From Chitinophagaceae bacterium (GTDB lineage Bacteria; Bacteroidota; Bacteroidia; Chitinophagales; Chitinophagaceae), in contig PMSV01000006.1 of NCBI GenBank assembly GCA_003168265.1, positions 1 through 64,000 of the forward strand: a DNA stretch of 64,000 nt, in the 5' to 3' direction. The translations under genes were made by a program, and so were the position numbers. Shown piece by piece: positions 369-28,059 of the stretch (position 1 is the first letter of the stretch; the number at the start of each line of letters is the position of its first letter). Under the pieces are notes generated by a model, which was given only the letters and a program-made list of their open reading frames with translations, ran no database searches and was not told the origin of the DNA.

Positions 369-527
369 CTAAGATTTTTTCTTCTTTTTTGGAAGCTCGA
401 TGCCTTTCAGCATTTGTTTTGCTTTGCTGACTTTGTCTGGGAACAAGACCTGCCCCGTAAATTTATCCAGTGATTTGTTGATCCGGATAGTTGATGATGG
501 ATTGCTTTGATTGTTCTTGATGCTCAT
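369..527 (-). CDS. Small basic protein encoded after the DUF6934 gene (52 aa)
   Basis: This gene is too short for the ORF track. It starts at ATG 527 and ends in TAG at 369-371. The protein begins MSIKNNQSNPSS, has a central LDKFTGQVLFPDKVSKAK stretch and ends in a lysine run (PKKKKKS). Its start lies 9 bases after the native stop codon of the interrupted DUF6934 gene (537-539), so the two were one transcriptional unit before the insertion sequence arrived. From memory, short proteins with a LFPDKV-like motif occur beside DUF6934 genes in Bacteroidota; this was not checked by search. Function is unknown. A two-gene toxin-antitoxin-like or accessory module is an inference from size and pairing only. 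It now lies behind the transposase gene, so its expression may depend on IS read-through. Confidence 0.6.
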   Translation of the reverse strand: MSIKNNQSNPSSTIRINKSLDKFTGQVLFPDKVSKAKQMLKGIELPKKKKKS

Positions 528-584
528 GATGTAAAATTATTTATTTTTTCTTTTAATTAAAAATCCTTCATAGTCGATGCCGAC

Positions 585-594
585 ATTAAATTTT
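585..594. repeat. Left copy of IS target-site duplication
   Basis: ATTAAATTTT directly abuts the left IS end (AGAATTAGG begins at 595). The same 10 bases abut the right IS end at 1587-1596. IS1595-family elements are usually credited with 8-bp duplications, so two of the ten matching bases may be chance. Confidence 0.85.
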
Positions 595-608
595 AGAATT
601 AGGTAGAA
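595..608. repeat. Left terminal inverted repeat of the IS
   Basis: AGAATTAGGTAGAA pairs with the reverse complement of 1573-1586 at 13 of 14 positions. The transposase stop codon (599-601) lies inside it. Confidence 0.8.
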
Positions 609-1501
609 TAAGCGCATAGGGCTGATAATATTGAATAAGGCCTGGGCTCACTATTCATGAGTCTTTGCATTATGTCATTGAATATCCATTTCCTCATATT
701 TCGTTTGTTAAACCTGTATTTATATTCATCCAGATACGCATGAAGATGAGTGGAAGAACATTTATGATGAATGCCTCGCAGCCAGTTCTTAAACAACATG
801 ATCTGTTTGTGGATCTCCGGGAATGCTTCCCCCTTATTGGATACTTTGGTAGCTATCGGAAATTTCTCCTTCAGTGCTTCATAGGCAGCATGCTTATCTG
901 TTTGAATATAAGTATCTGGTGCTATCAGGTCTGTCAGAGCGACTTCTAAGGTATCTGCCTTGAAATTTTCAATCACCTCGAAATTAATATTGCCTGTTTT
1001 GTCGCCTCCCAGGGCCTCAATAGCTACAACCACTGCTGCTTTATCTTTAAGGCTACGACCTTTATTTTCACTGCCTGCACGATAACCTCCTATTATTGTC
1101 TCGTCGACCTCAACCGAGCCTTGCAGAAGGGATTTATCTTTCATAACTGATTGAATCTTACGCTTAAATAACCAGGCTGTTTTCTGTTGCACATAAACCT
1201 CGGTACCTAATTCTACGGTTGACATGCCCTTCTTTTTGGTAGTTACCCGAAAGATGATGTGAAAAGCCTTTAAAACAGGCATTTTCATTCCATGAAAAAC
1301 GGTATTGGCCGTTACACTTTCATCGTATAAGCATTTCTTGCACCTCCTATAGTACCAGGTTCTGCCTTTCATATGTTCCGTGTTGCCACATCGCGAACAT
1401 TGATAGCCTTTCCCCCATTTTAAATCGATAAGGTAATTATAACAACTCTCATTGTCGACAAACATCTTACTGAATTCAATCGCGCTAATTCCCTGAAACA
1501 T
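599..1501 (-). CDS. IS1595-family transposase
   Basis: This is a DDE/D-type transposase of the IS1595 (ISXO2-like) family. An N-terminal zinc ribbon is visible as CSRCG and CKKC (spaced CxxC pairs), followed by the catalytic core with VEVDETIIGG (first Asp), TDKHAAY (second Asp) and the family's WLRGIHH and LDEYKYRFNKR blocks. I place the start at ATG 1501 (MFQGISAIEF), where family similarity begins, because the longer ORF start at 1549 adds 16 residues without family character and overlaps the truncated DUF6934 frame. At this start the protein is 300 aa, normal for the family. The third catalytic residue cannot be fixed by eye. The reading frame is intact. Confidence 0.9.
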   Translation of the reverse strand: MFQGISAIEFSKMFVDNESCYNYLIDLKWGKGYQCSRCGNTEHMKGRTWYYRRCKKCLYDESVTANTVFHGMKMPVLKAFHIIFRVTTKKKGMSTVELGTEVYVQQKTAWLFKRKIQSVMKDKSLLQGSVEVDETIIGGYRAGSENKGRSLKDKAAVVVAIEALGGDKTGNINFEVIENFKADTLEVALTDLIAPDTYIQTDKHAAYEALKEKFPIATKVSNKGEAFPEIHKQIMLFKNWLRGIHHKCSSTHLHAYLDEYKYRFNKRNMRKWIFNDIMQRLMNSEPRPYSILSALCAYST

Positions 1502-1572
1502 AGCTAATATATTTAGCTCTAAGATACTAACTATATTAGTTTTAAACAAACCCTATCTTCGCATTGCGAACG

Positions 1573-1586
1573 TTCTGCCTAATTCT
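1573..1586. repeat. Right terminal inverted repeat of the IS
   Basis: TTCTGCCTAATTCT is the inverted partner of 595-608 and directly precedes the second target-site copy. Confidence 0.8.
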
Positions 1587-1596
1587 ATTAAATTTT
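1587..1596. repeat. Right copy of IS target-site duplication
   Basis: ATTAAATTTT is identical to 585-594. On the minus strand it encodes the KFN codons at which the DUF6934 reading frame was split. Confidence 0.85.
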
Positions 1597-2018
1597 GTCA
1601 ATCTATTATTCCTATATCCGTATACCTCAAAATCTGTACTTATTTTTATTAAGTTGTTAGTGATCCCAATTCTGTATAACCTGGTTCTTGTTTTTGTGTT
1701 GCCCGCGGCAAAAATCCATGCTGCGGGATATATATCAGTAAATATGTAAACAGAAAAAGCCACAGTTGCCAACACCTTTTTGCTATCATCATTATTTGTG
1801 ATGACTTTATCATCTATATCACCGCTGATAATGTTCTTGTCCCCAAAACCAAGGTTATAAATATTGGAATGAAGCTTTGTGTATTGGATAAGTTTTGTGA
1901 TTTTACCTTGTGGGCCTTCGCTGATAAATTCAAAGACCATTAGATTTTGCGCCGCATCCAATTCGTATCGTTCAAGGTTCATTCGAAATGTTTTGAGATT
2001 AGAAACTTGTATGATGAT

Positions 2019-3263
2019 CTATTGATTAGCTATCAAAGAAGGTTTTCTGTCAATGAATTTATTTTTTAGCGCCTTCATATCATCGCTCACTTTTCTGTCG
2101 AGCACTCTCGCATATTGCTGTGTCGTGCGCAGGTTTGTATGCCCTAGCATTTTCCCGACAGTCTCGATTGGAACTCCATTACTTAATGTAACAGTAGTAG
2201 CAAACGTGTGCCGTGCACAATGGAATGTCAGCTCCTTTTTAAATCCGCATTGATCCGTGATTTCTTTGAGATAACTGTTCAATCTTTGATTGGAAAGTTG
2301 TGGCAGCAATTTATTGTTCGCTACGACTGCAGGATGATTTTCATATATGTGTAGAATATCTTTTGCTTGCGGCAGCAACGGTATGCGTGAATCATTATCC
2401 GTTTTTGTTCTCTTCGTGAAAATCCAAAGTTCGCCGTCAATGCCGATGCTGAGATCGTTTTTCGTGAGCTTCATCACATCGCTGTACGAGAGGCCGGTGT
2501 AGCAACTGAACAGAAAAATATTTTTTACCTGTTCTAACCTTTGGATCAAAAATTTTTTTGAGGAAAGCAATTCAAGCTCGTCTTTGAAAAGATAATTGCG
2601 ATGAGTTTGTTTGAGATGCATCTTGTAATGATAGAAAGGATCGTTTTCTATCCATTTGTTCGCCATGCACTGACGGATTATTTTTTTTAATTTCTTGAGA
2701 TTGTTCATCGCTGAATTATGTTGCATGACCTGCACAGACTTGAGATAAAATTCATAGTCGGTGATGAATTGGTGATTGAGCTCTGTGAGAAAAATATCTT
2801 TGCGCTTGAATTTCCATTCGATGAAATTTTTCAAAGACTTCAGCGCTGACTTAAATTTTTTATAAGTGCCGTGTGAGTATTCAATCCCTGCTAGCGCACC
2901 GAACTGATCGTTGTGATATTGGTACACACTGATCAGCGAATGCTTCATTTCCTGTTGCTGGTTCAATAATTTTTGTTTTGCAATCTCTGGAGTGAGCGGG
3001 ATATTTTTCAGCATGTATTCTTTCTGCAACTCAAATATCCTCGTGCGGATCGTATCGAGATATTGATTCAACTGCACAGCATCTCCTTTTGTGCCGCTCA
3101 TTTTTCCTGCAGCCTGGTTCCATTTTGCACGCTCGCATTTTCTCTGTACGCTCCATTCTACCCGACTACCGTCTATGGTTATGCGTACATAGACCGGCAA
3201 CGCCCCGGCCTTGCTTCTTTTTCCCTTTTTCAGGAAGAAAATCGTCTTGAAATTCTGGCTCAT
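2019..3263 (-). CDS. Tyrosine site-specific recombinase / integrase (IntDOT-like)
   Basis: This 414-aa integrase has the three-part architecture of Bacteroidota recombinases: an arm-type DNA-binding domain (about 1-95), a SAM-like core-binding domain (about 105-220) and a catalytic domain (about 230-400). Visible catalytic residues are HxxR (H348, R351 in HCARHTF), H375 in LGHT and the nucleophile Y384 in QQYARV, with a plausible Lys at 284 or 287. The first Arg of the usual R-K-H-R-H-Y set is replaced by Ser (CYTGLSYSDV, S259), as is known for CTnDOT IntDOT. The gene lies next to tRNA-Lys with its 5' end toward the 3' end of the tRNA, so it probably drives integration at that tRNA. The DUF6934 module follows it on the same strand. 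Confidence 0.93.
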   Translation of the reverse strand: MSQNFKTIFFLKKGKRSKAGALPVYVRITIDGSRVEWSVQRKCERAKWNQAAGKMSGTKGDAVQLNQYLDTIRTRIFELQKEYMLKNIPLTPEIAKQKLLNQQQEMKHSLISVYQYHNDQFGALAGIEYSHGTYKKFKSALKSLKNFIEWKFKRKDIFLTELNHQFITDYEFYLKSVQVMQHNSAMNNLKKLKKIIRQCMANKWIENDPFYHYKMHLKQTHRNYLFKDELELLSSKKFLIQRLEQVKNIFLFSCYTGLSYSDVMKLTKNDLSIGIDGELWIFTKRTKTDNDSRIPLLPQAKDILHIYENHPAVVANNKLLPQLSNQRLNSYLKEITDQCGFKKELTFHCARHTFATTVTLSNGVPIETVGKMLGHTNLRTTQQYARVLDRKVSDDMKALKNKFIDRKPSLIANQ

Positions 3264-3458
3264 AAATTTTGCTTTAAAAGGTTATAAAATTACCTTCATA
3301 GCAGCGTTGAAAACAAGATGCTTTTCCGCTGAACATGCTGCTGGGCAAGCGTTTCAGCGAGATTGGTGCGGGCATATGAACTGTTTTGAAAAGCCCGCTC
3401 GAATCACGCACTCGGGGGATTGATTTTCCTTGCTTTTCTTTGAGGACGAGCAGAAACA

Positions 3459-3493
3459 AAAAGCCCCGCAAATGCTGTATTTGCAGGGCTTTT
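3459..3493 (-). terminator. Terminator after tRNA-Lys
   Basis: A long stem, AAAAGCCC(C)GCAAAT against ATTTGC(A)GGGCTTTT with a loop of about five bases, is flanked by an A run on one side and a T run on the other, so it could end transcription in both directions. It lies 36 bases beyond the tRNA 3' end, between the tRNA and the integrase. Confidence 0.7.
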
Positions 3494-3528
3494 AGAGTGA
3501 GTTTGAGATGATGTGTGTTATCGAAAAG

Positions 3529-3601
3529 TGATCCCGCTGGGACTCGAACCCAGGACCCCAACATTAAAAGTGTTATGCTCTACCAACTGAGCTACGGAAT
3601 C
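3529..3601 (-). tRNA. tRNA-Lys (anticodon TTT)
   Basis: The minus strand folds as a full cloverleaf: acceptor GATTCCG/CGGGATC (one T-G pair), D arm GCTCAGTTGGTAGAGC, anticodon loop CTTTTAA giving anticodon TTT, and T arm CTGGGTTCGAGTCCCAG. The discriminator base is A and a full CCA is not encoded. The tRNA appears intact, as expected when an integrative element restores the 3' end on insertion. It is the likely attachment gene for the element on its left. Confidence 0.95.
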
Positions 3602-15834: not shown

Positions 15835-16195
15835 GCCTGATGGAATTTTTCCCGGTCGTGAAGTTAATCCGGGATAATCAAAAAACCCGCATTATTCTCC
15901 ACAAGAAGATAACATGAGAACCGGTAAACAGAAAAAATGATTGTAAGAGCGAGCGCTGAGCTTCTGATTTTCTGAACATCTTAAACCTATCCGGGTTTAG
16001 AAATAAATAAATTACAGGTCATCACAGCCACGAAAAAAGAAGGGTTCTGAAAAGATGAGATGCGGTTCTGAAACAGATGAGATACACTAGGCATGTATAG
16101 GCCGATCATACCCCTCCCTGCTGCCAATCCTGCCTGCCAAAACACTTTTTGCCATTTCATACCCCCAAAATAACTGGATTTTAGCCTTTTTTTCC
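15835..16195. other. Intergenic region between pntAB and rpsA
   Basis: This 360-bp divergent region holds the rpsA promoter at its right end and a short tandem repeat at 16043-16085. I found no coding remnant of the missing pntAA; the minus-strand ORF 15987-16316 is a shadow of the rpsA 5' end. The promoter for pntAB must lie here, but only a weak TAACTTCA candidate is visible near 15860. Confidence 0.5.
16043..16085. repeat. Two-copy imperfect tandem repeat (21-22 bp)
   Basis: GGTTCTGAAAAGATGAGATGC is followed at once by GGTTCTGAAACAGATGAGATAC: one insertion and one or two substitutions. It lies in the divergent pntAB/rpsA region and could be a regulator site pair or simple duplication. Confidence 0.6.
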
Positions 16196-16203
16196 TACAT
16201 TTG
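16196..16203 (+). promoter_or_regulatory. Probable -7 box of the rpsA promoter
   Basis: TACATTTG is a perfect TAnnTTTG match, 30 bases before the rpsA ATG at 16234. It overlaps the TTG that the ORF track took as the start, which argues for the ATG. Confidence 0.6.
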
Positions 16204-16233
16204 CAACCCGATTTTAAAGCATCGGATCTAATT

Positions 16234-18189
16234 ATGTCTGAAAACAATATTGTTAACTCAAACGCTGAAGAACAGGAACCGGCCCCAGAGGCCCAGGTAA
16301 CAGCGGTAACAAACATTCCTGCAGCAGAACCTGCCGAACAGCCGGTCGTAGTGGCGGCTCAGGTAGAAGAAAAACTTGCGACGGCTCATGATGATTTTGA
16401 CTGGAGCATCGATAAACGCAATGTCACCCACTACACAAAGGATGAGAAAGAAAAATACGATCATGTCTATGAGAACACTTTTATCACGATCACTGACAGT
16501 GAACTGATCACCGGGACTGTCGTGGCTCTTACAAAGACCGATGTAGTGGTGAATATCGGTTTCAAAAGCGACGGCCTTGTATCCCTCAATGAATTCAGGG
16601 ATACGCCCAACATGAAGATCGGCGATGAGGTAGAAGTGATGGTCGTCGAAAAAGAAGACCGGGAAGGGCACCTGCATCTTAGCCGCAAACAAGCCAGGAT
16701 CACCCGCGCATGGGAAAGGATCGTGGAAGTGCATCGCACAGGAGAGGTTGTCACCGGTACCGTTACGAGTAAAACCAAGGGTGGCCTTATCGTTGATGTA
16801 TTCGGCATGGAAACCTTCCTGCCGGGTTCTCAGATTGATGTCAAACCCGTTACCGATTACGACCAATTCGTTAACAAGACCATGGAATTCAAGGTCGTTA
16901 AGATCAATGATACCATTAAAAATGCAGTCGTTTCTCACAAGGCCCTGATCGAAAGCGATATCGAAGCACAACGTGCAGAGATTATGAGCAAACTGGAAAA
17001 AGGCCAGGTGCTGGAGGGAACAATTAAGAATATTACCGATTTCGGAGCCTTTATGGACCTTGGCGGCCTTGACGGATTGCTGTATATTACCGATATAAGC
17101 TGGGGCCGTATTTCTCACCCAAGTGAGGTGCTGAAACTGGATCAAAAACTCCAGGTCGTTGTACTTGATTTCGACGATGGTAAGAAACGCATCAGCCTTG
17201 GTCTGAAACAACTTACCCCGCATCCCTGGGATGTGCTTCCTGAAACGATTAAAGAAGGAGCCATCGTGAAGGGGAAAGTGGTCAATATTGAAGATTACGG
17301 TGCATTCCTGGAAGTAATGCCCGGAGTGGAAGGTCTTGTGCATGTGAGCGAGATCACATGGGCCAATACGCCGATCAATGCCAAGGAATTCTTCAAGCTG
17401 GGCGATGAACACCAGTCAAAAGTTGTGACCCTGGATAAGGCCAACCGTAAAATGAGCCTTTCTATCAAACAGCTCAGTGAAGATCCCTGGAGTACCATAG
17501 AAACAAAATTCCCTCAGGGAAGCAAACATACCGGACTGGTCAAGAACATCACTCCTTACGGCGTGTTTGTGGAACTTTCTCCAGGCATCGGGGGCATGAT
17601 CCATATCAGCGACCTGAGCTGGCTCAAACGTTTCAATCACCCTTCGGAATTTACAAAGGTTGGTCAGCATATCGATGTGATCATCCTGGGCATCGACAAG
17701 GACAACCGCAAACTCCAACTCGGACATAAGCAACTCGAAGAAGATCCCTGGAATGCACTGGAACAGACTTTCGCGATCGGAACCGTGCATGAAGGAACCG
17801 TTATCCGTAAAGACGATAAAGGAGCCCTGGTTCAATTGCCCTATGGTCTGGAAGGATTTGCACCTAACCGCCATTTGTTTAAGGAAGACGGCAAACAAAT
17901 CGGCGCAGATGAAACCAACAGTTTTATGGTAATCGAATTCGATCGCAATGAAAAACGCATCGTTCTTTCTCATACCCGTATCTGGGAACAGGCCAAACAT
18001 GATGAGAAGGAAGCAGCGCGTAAGGAATCGAGAGTCGAAGCTGACCAGGCTCGCAAAGCAGTAAAAACCATCCAGAGTAAGGTTGAAAAACCGACACTCG
18101 GTGATCTTGGCGCCCTTGCAGGCATCAAAGAAAAACTGCAGCAGGAAGAAAAAGGAAATGTGGCGCCCGGCAGTGAACCTAAACAATAG
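16234..18189 (+). CDS. rpsA: 30S ribosomal protein S1
   Basis: This protein (651 aa from ATG 16234, MSENNIVNSN) has an acidic, Ala/Glu/Pro-rich N-terminal tail of about 75 residues and then six S1 RNA-binding repeats, each with a G.V..(I/D).GAFV..-like core, such as LEGTIKNITDFGAFMDLGG and VKGKVVNIEDYGAFLEV. A Lys/Glu-rich tail ends the protein. S1 binds mRNA on the 30S subunit and is important in Bacteroidota, where Shine-Dalgarno sequences are weak. The ORF-track start at TTG 16201 is rejected because the -7 promoter box overlaps it. Confidence 0.96.
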   Translation: MSENNIVNSNAEEQEPAPEAQVTAVTNIPAAEPAEQPVVVAAQVEEKLATAHDDFDWSIDKRNVTHYTKDEKEKYDHVYENTFITITDSELITGTVVALTKTDVVVNIGFKSDGLVSLNEFRDTPNMKIGDEVEVMVVEKEDREGHLHLSRKQARITRAWERIVEVHRTGEVVTGTVTSKTKGGLIVDVFGMETFLPGSQIDVKPVTDYDQFVNKTMEFKVVKINDTIKNAVVSHKALIESDIEAQRAEIMSKLEKGQVLEGTIKNITDFGAFMDLGGLDGLLYITDISWGRISHPSEVLKLDQKLQVVVLDFDDGKKRISLGLKQLTPHPWDVLPETIKEGAIVKGKVVNIEDYGAFLEVMPGVEGLVHVSEITWANTPINAKEFFKLGDEHQSKVVTLDKANRKMSLSIKQLSEDPWSTIETKFPQGSKHTGLVKNITPYGVFVELSPGIGGMIHISDLSWLKRFNHPSEFTKVGQHIDVIILGIDKDNRKLQLGHKQLEEDPWNALEQTFAIGTVHEGTVIRKDDKGALVQLPYGLEGFAPNRHLFKEDGKQIGADETNSFMVIEFDRNEKRIVLSHTRIWEQAKHDEKEAARKESRVEADQARKAVKTIQSKVEKPTLGDLGALAGIKEKLQQEEKGNVAPGSEPKQ

Positions 18190-26755: not shown

Positions 26756-28059
26756 TTCAATTGCTCATTTTAGGTCTGCTTATTTTCATGAACGGGCTAT
26801 TCGTCATGGCCGAAATTGCTCTTGTATCAGCCCGAAAATCGAAACTGGAAAGCATGGCTGATAAAGGTGATGACATGGCAAGGGCGGCCCTCCTTCTGGC
26901 CGGAAACCCCGAGCTCTTTTTATCCACTGCCCAGCTTTTTATCACTTTGGTAGCTATTCTTACCGGACTATATTCGGGAGAGGAGTTCGGCCGTTATCTT
27001 CGGCCTGTTTTGGAAAGAATCGGCCCTATTCGTCCTTATGCGGCAGATATCTCAACGGCCCTGATCGTAATCGTAGTGACCTTTCTTTCCATCATCTTCG
27101 GGGAATTGCTCCCTAAAAGAACAGGATTGGCAAGGTCCGAACAGATTGCCAGGATGGTGGCCAGGCCAATGCGTTTTCTCTCCCGGGCGACCCATCCTTT
27201 TATCTGGCTGTTGAATTCGACCAGCAATATATTTTTCAAATTGGTGGACCTTAAACCCAATAAAGACGGCAATGTTACGGAAGACGAGATCAAGGCCATG
27301 ATCATCGAAGGCGCAGAGCAGGGAGAGATAGAAGAGACCGAACAGGAGATAATCGAAAGGGTCTTTCACCTTGGGGACCGCAATATCACTTCCCTTATGA
27401 CGCATCGCAGCGATATAGTATGGTTTGATATCAATGAGAATGAACTCATGATAAAGGAAAAGATATTTAAGGAGCCGCATTCTTTTTACCCGGTATGCGA
27501 AGGAGATATCGACAGCATAAAAGGCATTGTATCCATCAAAGACCTTTACATTACAGATGACCATATACCTTTCCGGGATATCGCCAAACCGCCCATGTTC
27601 GTACCGGAAAACAACAATGCCTATCAATTACTGGAGAAATTGAAACTGGCCAGGAATCACTGTTGCTTTATCGTGGATGAATACGGAAGCCTGCTCGGCA
27701 TGCTTACCCTTACCGATATCCTGGACGCGATCATCGGGGACCTTCCCCAGCCGGGAGATCAGGATTATGAAATAAGGCTACGCGAGGACGGTTCCTGGCT
27801 GGTTGATGCGCAGATACCCTTCTACGATTTCCTGTCCCATTTTGACAAGACGGACTGGATGAACGAGGGTGATCAGGAATTCGATACCCTGGCCGGTTTC
27901 ATCCTGCACCAGTTAGAACATATCCCCGAGACGGGAGAAACCCTGTCCTGGAAAAATTTTAAATTTGAAATCGTGTACATGGACGCCGCCAGGATCGATA
28001 AGGTCCTTGTCAAACAATTGCATAAAAAGGATCGGAAAGTGGAGGAAGAAGAGCAGTGA
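26752..28059 (+). CDS. CNNM/CorC-type hemolysin family membrane protein
   Basis: The 435-aa protein has the standard domain order: a DUF21/CNNM transmembrane domain (residues 1-180, with MNGLFVMAEIALVSARKSKLE), a tandem CBS pair (about 200-330, ITSLMTHRSDIVWFD and CCFIVDEYGSLLGMLTLTDILDAIIGD) and a CorC_HlyC domain at the C terminus (DYEIRLREDGSWLVDAQIP). The family exports or regulates Mg2+ or other divalent ions. It is translationally coupled to the PAP2 gene (ATGA overlap) and ends 6 bases from the convergent DUF6702 gene. Confidence 0.93.
   Translation: MIQLLILGLLIFMNGLFVMAEIALVSARKSKLESMADKGDDMARAALLLAGNPELFLSTAQLFITLVAILTGLYSGEEFGRYLRPVLERIGPIRPYAADISTALIVIVVTFLSIIFGELLPKRTGLARSEQIARMVARPMRFLSRATHPFIWLLNSTSNIFFKLVDLKPNKDGNVTEDEIKAMIIEGAEQGEIEETEQEIIERVFHLGDRNITSLMTHRSDIVWFDINENELMIKEKIFKEPHSFYPVCEGDIDSIKGIVSIKDLYITDDHIPFRDIAKPPMFVPENNNAYQLLEKLKLARNHCCFIVDEYGSLLGMLTLTDILDAIIGDLPQPGDQDYEIRLREDGSWLVDAQIPFYDFLSHFDKTDWMNEGDQEFDTLAGFILHQLEHIPETGETLSWKNFKFEIVYMDAARIDKVLVKQLHKKDRKVEEEEQ

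Follow-up and report, generated by a model that had tools for sequence, protein, structure and literature searches.

The 64,000-nt stretch analysed here (the window) opens contig PMSV01000006.1 (C18) of a Chitinophagaceae bacterium (assembly GCA_003168265.1; G000), and close to its left end a minus-strand gene with a DUF6934 domain is interrupted by an insertion sequence (IS). This raises the questions of how the gene was broken, what is left of it, and to what kind of system it belonged. The explanation we favor, with a probability of about 96%, is that a 994-bp IS1595-family element transposed into the last tenth of the DUF6934 gene at the A+T-rich target TTAAATTT, where it would have duplicated 8 bp and left a chimeric reading frame behind. 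As a biological event such an insertion is ordinary. The lead worth following, which matters more than a routine IS insertion, is the unnamed gene directly downstream of the interrupted one.

The interrupted DUF6934 gene

The native 5′ part of the gene (1588–1982, minus strand) starts at ATG 1982 and encodes residues 1–131 together with the first bases of codon 132. The displaced 3′ part (537–593, minus strand) lies in the same frame and encodes VGIDYEGFLIKRKNK followed by a stop, a motif conserved in relatives. Reading the present-day ORF instead gives a chimera of 146 aa (1542–1982, minus strand), in which N132 is followed by 14 IS-coded residues (RIRQNVRNAKIGFV), as the earlier note had reported. 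The chimeric ORF matches DUF6934 (PF22028; E = 5.7e-47) with its residues 2–133 at profile positions 1–133 of 145. It thus resembles the family up to the point where the gene is broken by the IS, and the in silico join described below supplies the remainder of the profile.

Removal of the IS and one flank copy in silico restores a 147-aa frame ending …LTKFNVGIDYEGFLIKRKNK, which aligns through its C terminus with 30 intact DUF6934 proteins of the same bacterial family. Nearly all of these relatives end in a C terminus of the Y-x-x-F-x-x-x-(R/K) type, which is back in the joined frame and absent from the present gene. None of the 30 carries the IS-coded tail, and none has an intact gene ending at 1542, an observation that the earlier note had named as counting against its reading. 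Its interpretation of the locus as an IS1595-family insertion in a minus-strand DUF6934 gene with a recoverable pre-insertion frame is thereby supported, both by this join and by the domain matches of the gene (PF22028) and of the transposase.

The gene product, if there is one today, would be the 146-aa chimera without the conserved last 15 residues of the 147-aa protein. Although 132 of 147 residues are kept, we infer that DUF6934 function was probably lost. The 3′ part and the downstream 52-aa partner gene are severed from the original frame and perhaps from its transcript, and the IS probably has a polar effect on the partner gene. That the chimera retains its function, or was domesticated together with its IS-coded tail, appears unlikely to us. 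The first 132 codons are open and this part has a strong Pfam match, but the lost piece contains conserved residues, including the Y-x-x-F region found in nearly all intact relatives, no relative has a comparable tail, and a low-confidence structural model would place a C-terminal strand in the lost piece. The fold model itself was poor (pLDDT 60, three sequences) and yielded no PDB match reaching E = 0.001, while a profile search of PDB sequences returned only hits with E ≥ 0.1; we found no mention of DUF6934 in the literature searched. For annotation purposes, the locus provides corrected IS boundaries, shows how far the broken gene really extends, and warns that the 146-aa ORF carries an IS-coded tail.

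Ends, target-site duplication and age of the insertion sequence

The IS (594–1587, minus strand) was delimited by its inverted-repeat arms and by two 994-bp homologues with the same ends (L107 and L109). Its transposase ORF (599–1549, minus strand) encodes 316 aa from TTG 1549; a start at the in-frame ATG 1501 would shorten the product to 300 aa. The protein matches the DDE_Tnp_IS1595 domain (PF12762; E = 2.7e-25), the NF033547 model (E = 1.2e-43; 149.5 bits, cut-off 75) and, at residues 32–74, an N-terminal zinc-ribbon (PF12760; E = 8e-8), with D149 and D218 invariant in an alignment of three transposases only. An N-terminal zinc-ribbon is a feature of all IS1595 groups except IS1016. The element resembles the IS1595 family in combining the zinc-ribbon and the DDE transposase in one ORF, as well as in its length of about 1 kb, its short terminal inverted repeats and its 8-bp target duplication; it differs from the nearest elements found (L107, L108 and L109) in sharing only ~55–57% amino acid identity with their transposases. 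Merlin transposons have a related transposase domain and duplications of 8–9 bp (PMC8101967), but they are eukaryotic and can be compared only as members of the wider superfamily.

The ends of the IS read TAGAATTAGG and CCTAATTCTA, and its terminal inverted repeats follow TAGAATTAGG(T/C)AGAA. Upon recomputation, 13 of 14 positions match between 595–608 and the far end, the value the earlier note had given; 14 of 15 match when the outer T/A pair is counted, and 71% match over 34 nt. The inverted repeats take in both T594 and A1587.

These two outer bases determine how the duplication is read. The ten nucleotides ATTAAATTTT are identical on both flanks (585–594 and 1587–1596), and the earlier note, right about the family, the locus and the identical flanks, had taken them as a 10-bp duplication around an IS of 992 bp (595–1586), one base short at each end. 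A subgroup that makes 10-bp duplications would account for the repeat that is truly present on both sides. Three related elements speak against it, with exact 8-bp duplications directly outside TAG…CTA and ends that take in the outer T/A: L039 (977 bp; AAAATTTA), L107 (994 bp; TAATCGCA) and L109 (994 bp; TATTTTAA). With the present IS, this pattern is found in four elements of the subgroup. Because the three relatives have exactly 8 bp and duplications in the IS1595 family are usually of this length (PMC8101967), we dropped the 10-bp duplication, now a very improbable reading, and place the IS at 594–1587 with TTAAATTT duplicated at 586–593 and 1588–1595. The 10-bp repeat is this 8-mer plus the terminal T/A of the IS, which matches target bases 585 and 1596 by coincidence.

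An assembly artefact in which a repeat was joined to the wrong flanks is scarcely credible: the window does begin at a contig end (C18:1) and contigs of this assembly are broken by other IS1595 copies, but a misjoin would not produce flanks that share an 8-mer and that, once joined, read in frame into a conserved C terminus.

The age of the transposition into the DUF6934 gene is less tightly constrained. According to the earlier note the duplication is undecayed and the event hence recent, an argument that does not carry as put, since identity over eight positions sets only a loose bound on the age (95% upper limit ~0.31 differences per site by our own calculation). The perfect duplication and the intact transposase ORF fit a young insertion, and a fairly recent event is plausible within this wide bound. 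An empty orthologous site was not found among 32 genus-mates at the tRNA-Lys locus. Only one of the genus-mates (G317) was seen to have this integrase (65.5% identity) at this tRNA-Lys, and past the integrase its sequence differs from the window. With no IS-free allele found, the empty site is therefore deduced from homologous DUF6934 genes.

Related copies and their target sites

G000 has further IS1595 copies where contigs C4, C12 and C17 end and where C21 begins (L011–L014). At least one more diverged IS1595 element (70–79% DNA identity) breaks the contigs of this genome at these places. The C4 copy has 17 nt identical to the end of the present IS and adjoins AAAATTTAA, the same kind of target. 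The IS ends are alike elsewhere, reading TAGAATTAGGCAGAA at C4 of the same genome and TAGRATTAGGYA in others; copies with different ends, which the earlier note had named as contrary evidence, were encountered neither in G000 nor in the relatives. As the G000 copies with these ends were seen only at contig ends, no second complete copy was compared.

To collect the flanks of related IS copies, we searched 399 genomes of the family for a sequence pattern. Across ten G124 copies, the 8 bp next to the IS are 97% A+T. In G125, seven copies lie beside sequences that are variants of ATTTAAGATATA or nearly match its reverse complement, with a 12-nt consensus near ATTTAAGATATA. Judging from these flanks, the element group appears to prefer A+T-rich, often palindrome-like targets, which would make the target site in the window a typical one; TTAAATTT occurs once in the DUF6934 gene and fits the A+T-rich preference. 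In G125 (L174, L185, L188, L190 and L192) and in G124 (L166, L183, L187, L189, L191 and L193), many copies of related IS ends have A+T-rich target flanks that closely resemble one another, over ~12 nt in G125, and the target preference in these two genomes is longer than expected for an IS1595-type element.

The flanks common to pairs of IS copies in G000 (9–13 nt) exceed what duplication would explain. Carry-over of flanks during transposition was considered for the identical flanks at C18/C4 (AAAATTTAA) and C12/C21 (GATTATAAATAAA) and set aside, the target preference seen in G125 and G124 being the simpler account.

Short elements of 132–240 bp with the same ends were also present, namely L169 at 1517–1648 (G003), L022 at 1449–1685 (G115) and L171 at 1276–1515 (G349). 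The first of these has a perfect flanking duplication of 8–9 bp. Being too short for a transposase, they are probably MITE-like derivatives of the IS group.

The partner ORF and the setting of the gene pair

Nine nucleotides after the original DUF6934 stop, comparison of DUF6934 loci revealed a conserved ORF for a basic protein of 52 aa (369–527, minus strand). Among the 30 best-scoring DUF6934 loci that we inspected, 29 have a small ORF of ~50–60 codons on the same strand right after the DUF6934 gene (L046–L076). In 200 genomes with 84 strong DUF6934 matches, a profile built from 24 of the small partner proteins (A1) located a partner ≤300 nt downstream in 57 cases; the window counts among the 27 others because the IS pushes its partner farther off. 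Conversely, A1 found 98 places, of which 68 lie downstream of a DUF6934 match, a co-location that is partly expected, as the profile was built from DUF6934-adjoining proteins. An ORF of 50 codons may arise by chance, but the residues shared across A1 (F29, K32 and P46 in the numbering of the window's partner) argue against this for most members.

On the other side of the interrupted gene, and outside the IS, lies a tyrosine integrase (2019–3263, minus strand; PF00589, PF13102 and PF17293), followed by a tRNA-Lys(TTT) gene (3528–3601, minus strand), the probable integration site of an element carrying the DUF6934 pair. The similarity of many genus-mates to the region ends exactly at 3528, the pattern that integration of an element at a tRNA end should leave. 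We conclude that 2019–3601 probably marks an integrative element. Since the DUF6934 pair follows directly behind the integrase beside tRNA-Lys, both genes are probably cargo, and the interrupted one may be dispensable. A search for another copy of the 24-nt tRNA-Lys end, as a marker of the element's far end, found none; as the window opens at a contig end (C18), the far end may be on another contig.

The pair is patchily distributed: about one in four of the genomes sampled from the family has it, and it also occurs on resistance plasmids. The same pair (DUF6934 protein WP_041321170 and partner WP_141113035) lies among resistance genes on Riemerella anatipestifer and Myroides albus plasmids, with the partner ORF at 16082–16243 of NZ_CP072192.1 and 27156–27317 of NZ_CP102755.1 (L148 and L149). 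Two contigs from a viral collection (L146 and L147) contain DUF6934 genes as well, and there the ORF behind them is shorter and more divergent. The plasmid-borne pairs and the genes in viral contigs therefore make it likely that DUF6934 and its partner form a mobile two-gene module, and the conserved pair seems not to have been described before.

What such a module might do can be stated only tentatively. At somewhat less than even odds, the interrupted gene belongs to an undescribed mobile module of Bacteroidota in which DUF6934 and the ~52-aa basic protein act together, for example in a toxin-antitoxin-like or defence role; the IS would then be a natural knock-out of the larger partner that leaves the smaller one intact. 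A toxin-antitoxin-like function is one guess. Like type II toxin-antitoxin pairs, the DUF6934 pair consists of two short, adjacent, co-directional genes (in 29 of 30 loci) and is patchy, multi-copy, present on plasmids and located near integrases. It differs from them in that the larger gene comes first and that the pair has no sequence match to known toxin or antitoxin families. Searches of Pfam, NCBIfam, PADLOC and PHROGs gave the partner no credible match, and no credible toxin or antitoxin homology of the pair emerged from these collections or from fold comparison with the poor model. The pair constitutes a testable candidate for an undescribed module. Finally, the 53-aa plasmid partner WP_141113035 is recorded as a DUF4197 protein, a label that looks like a misannotation.
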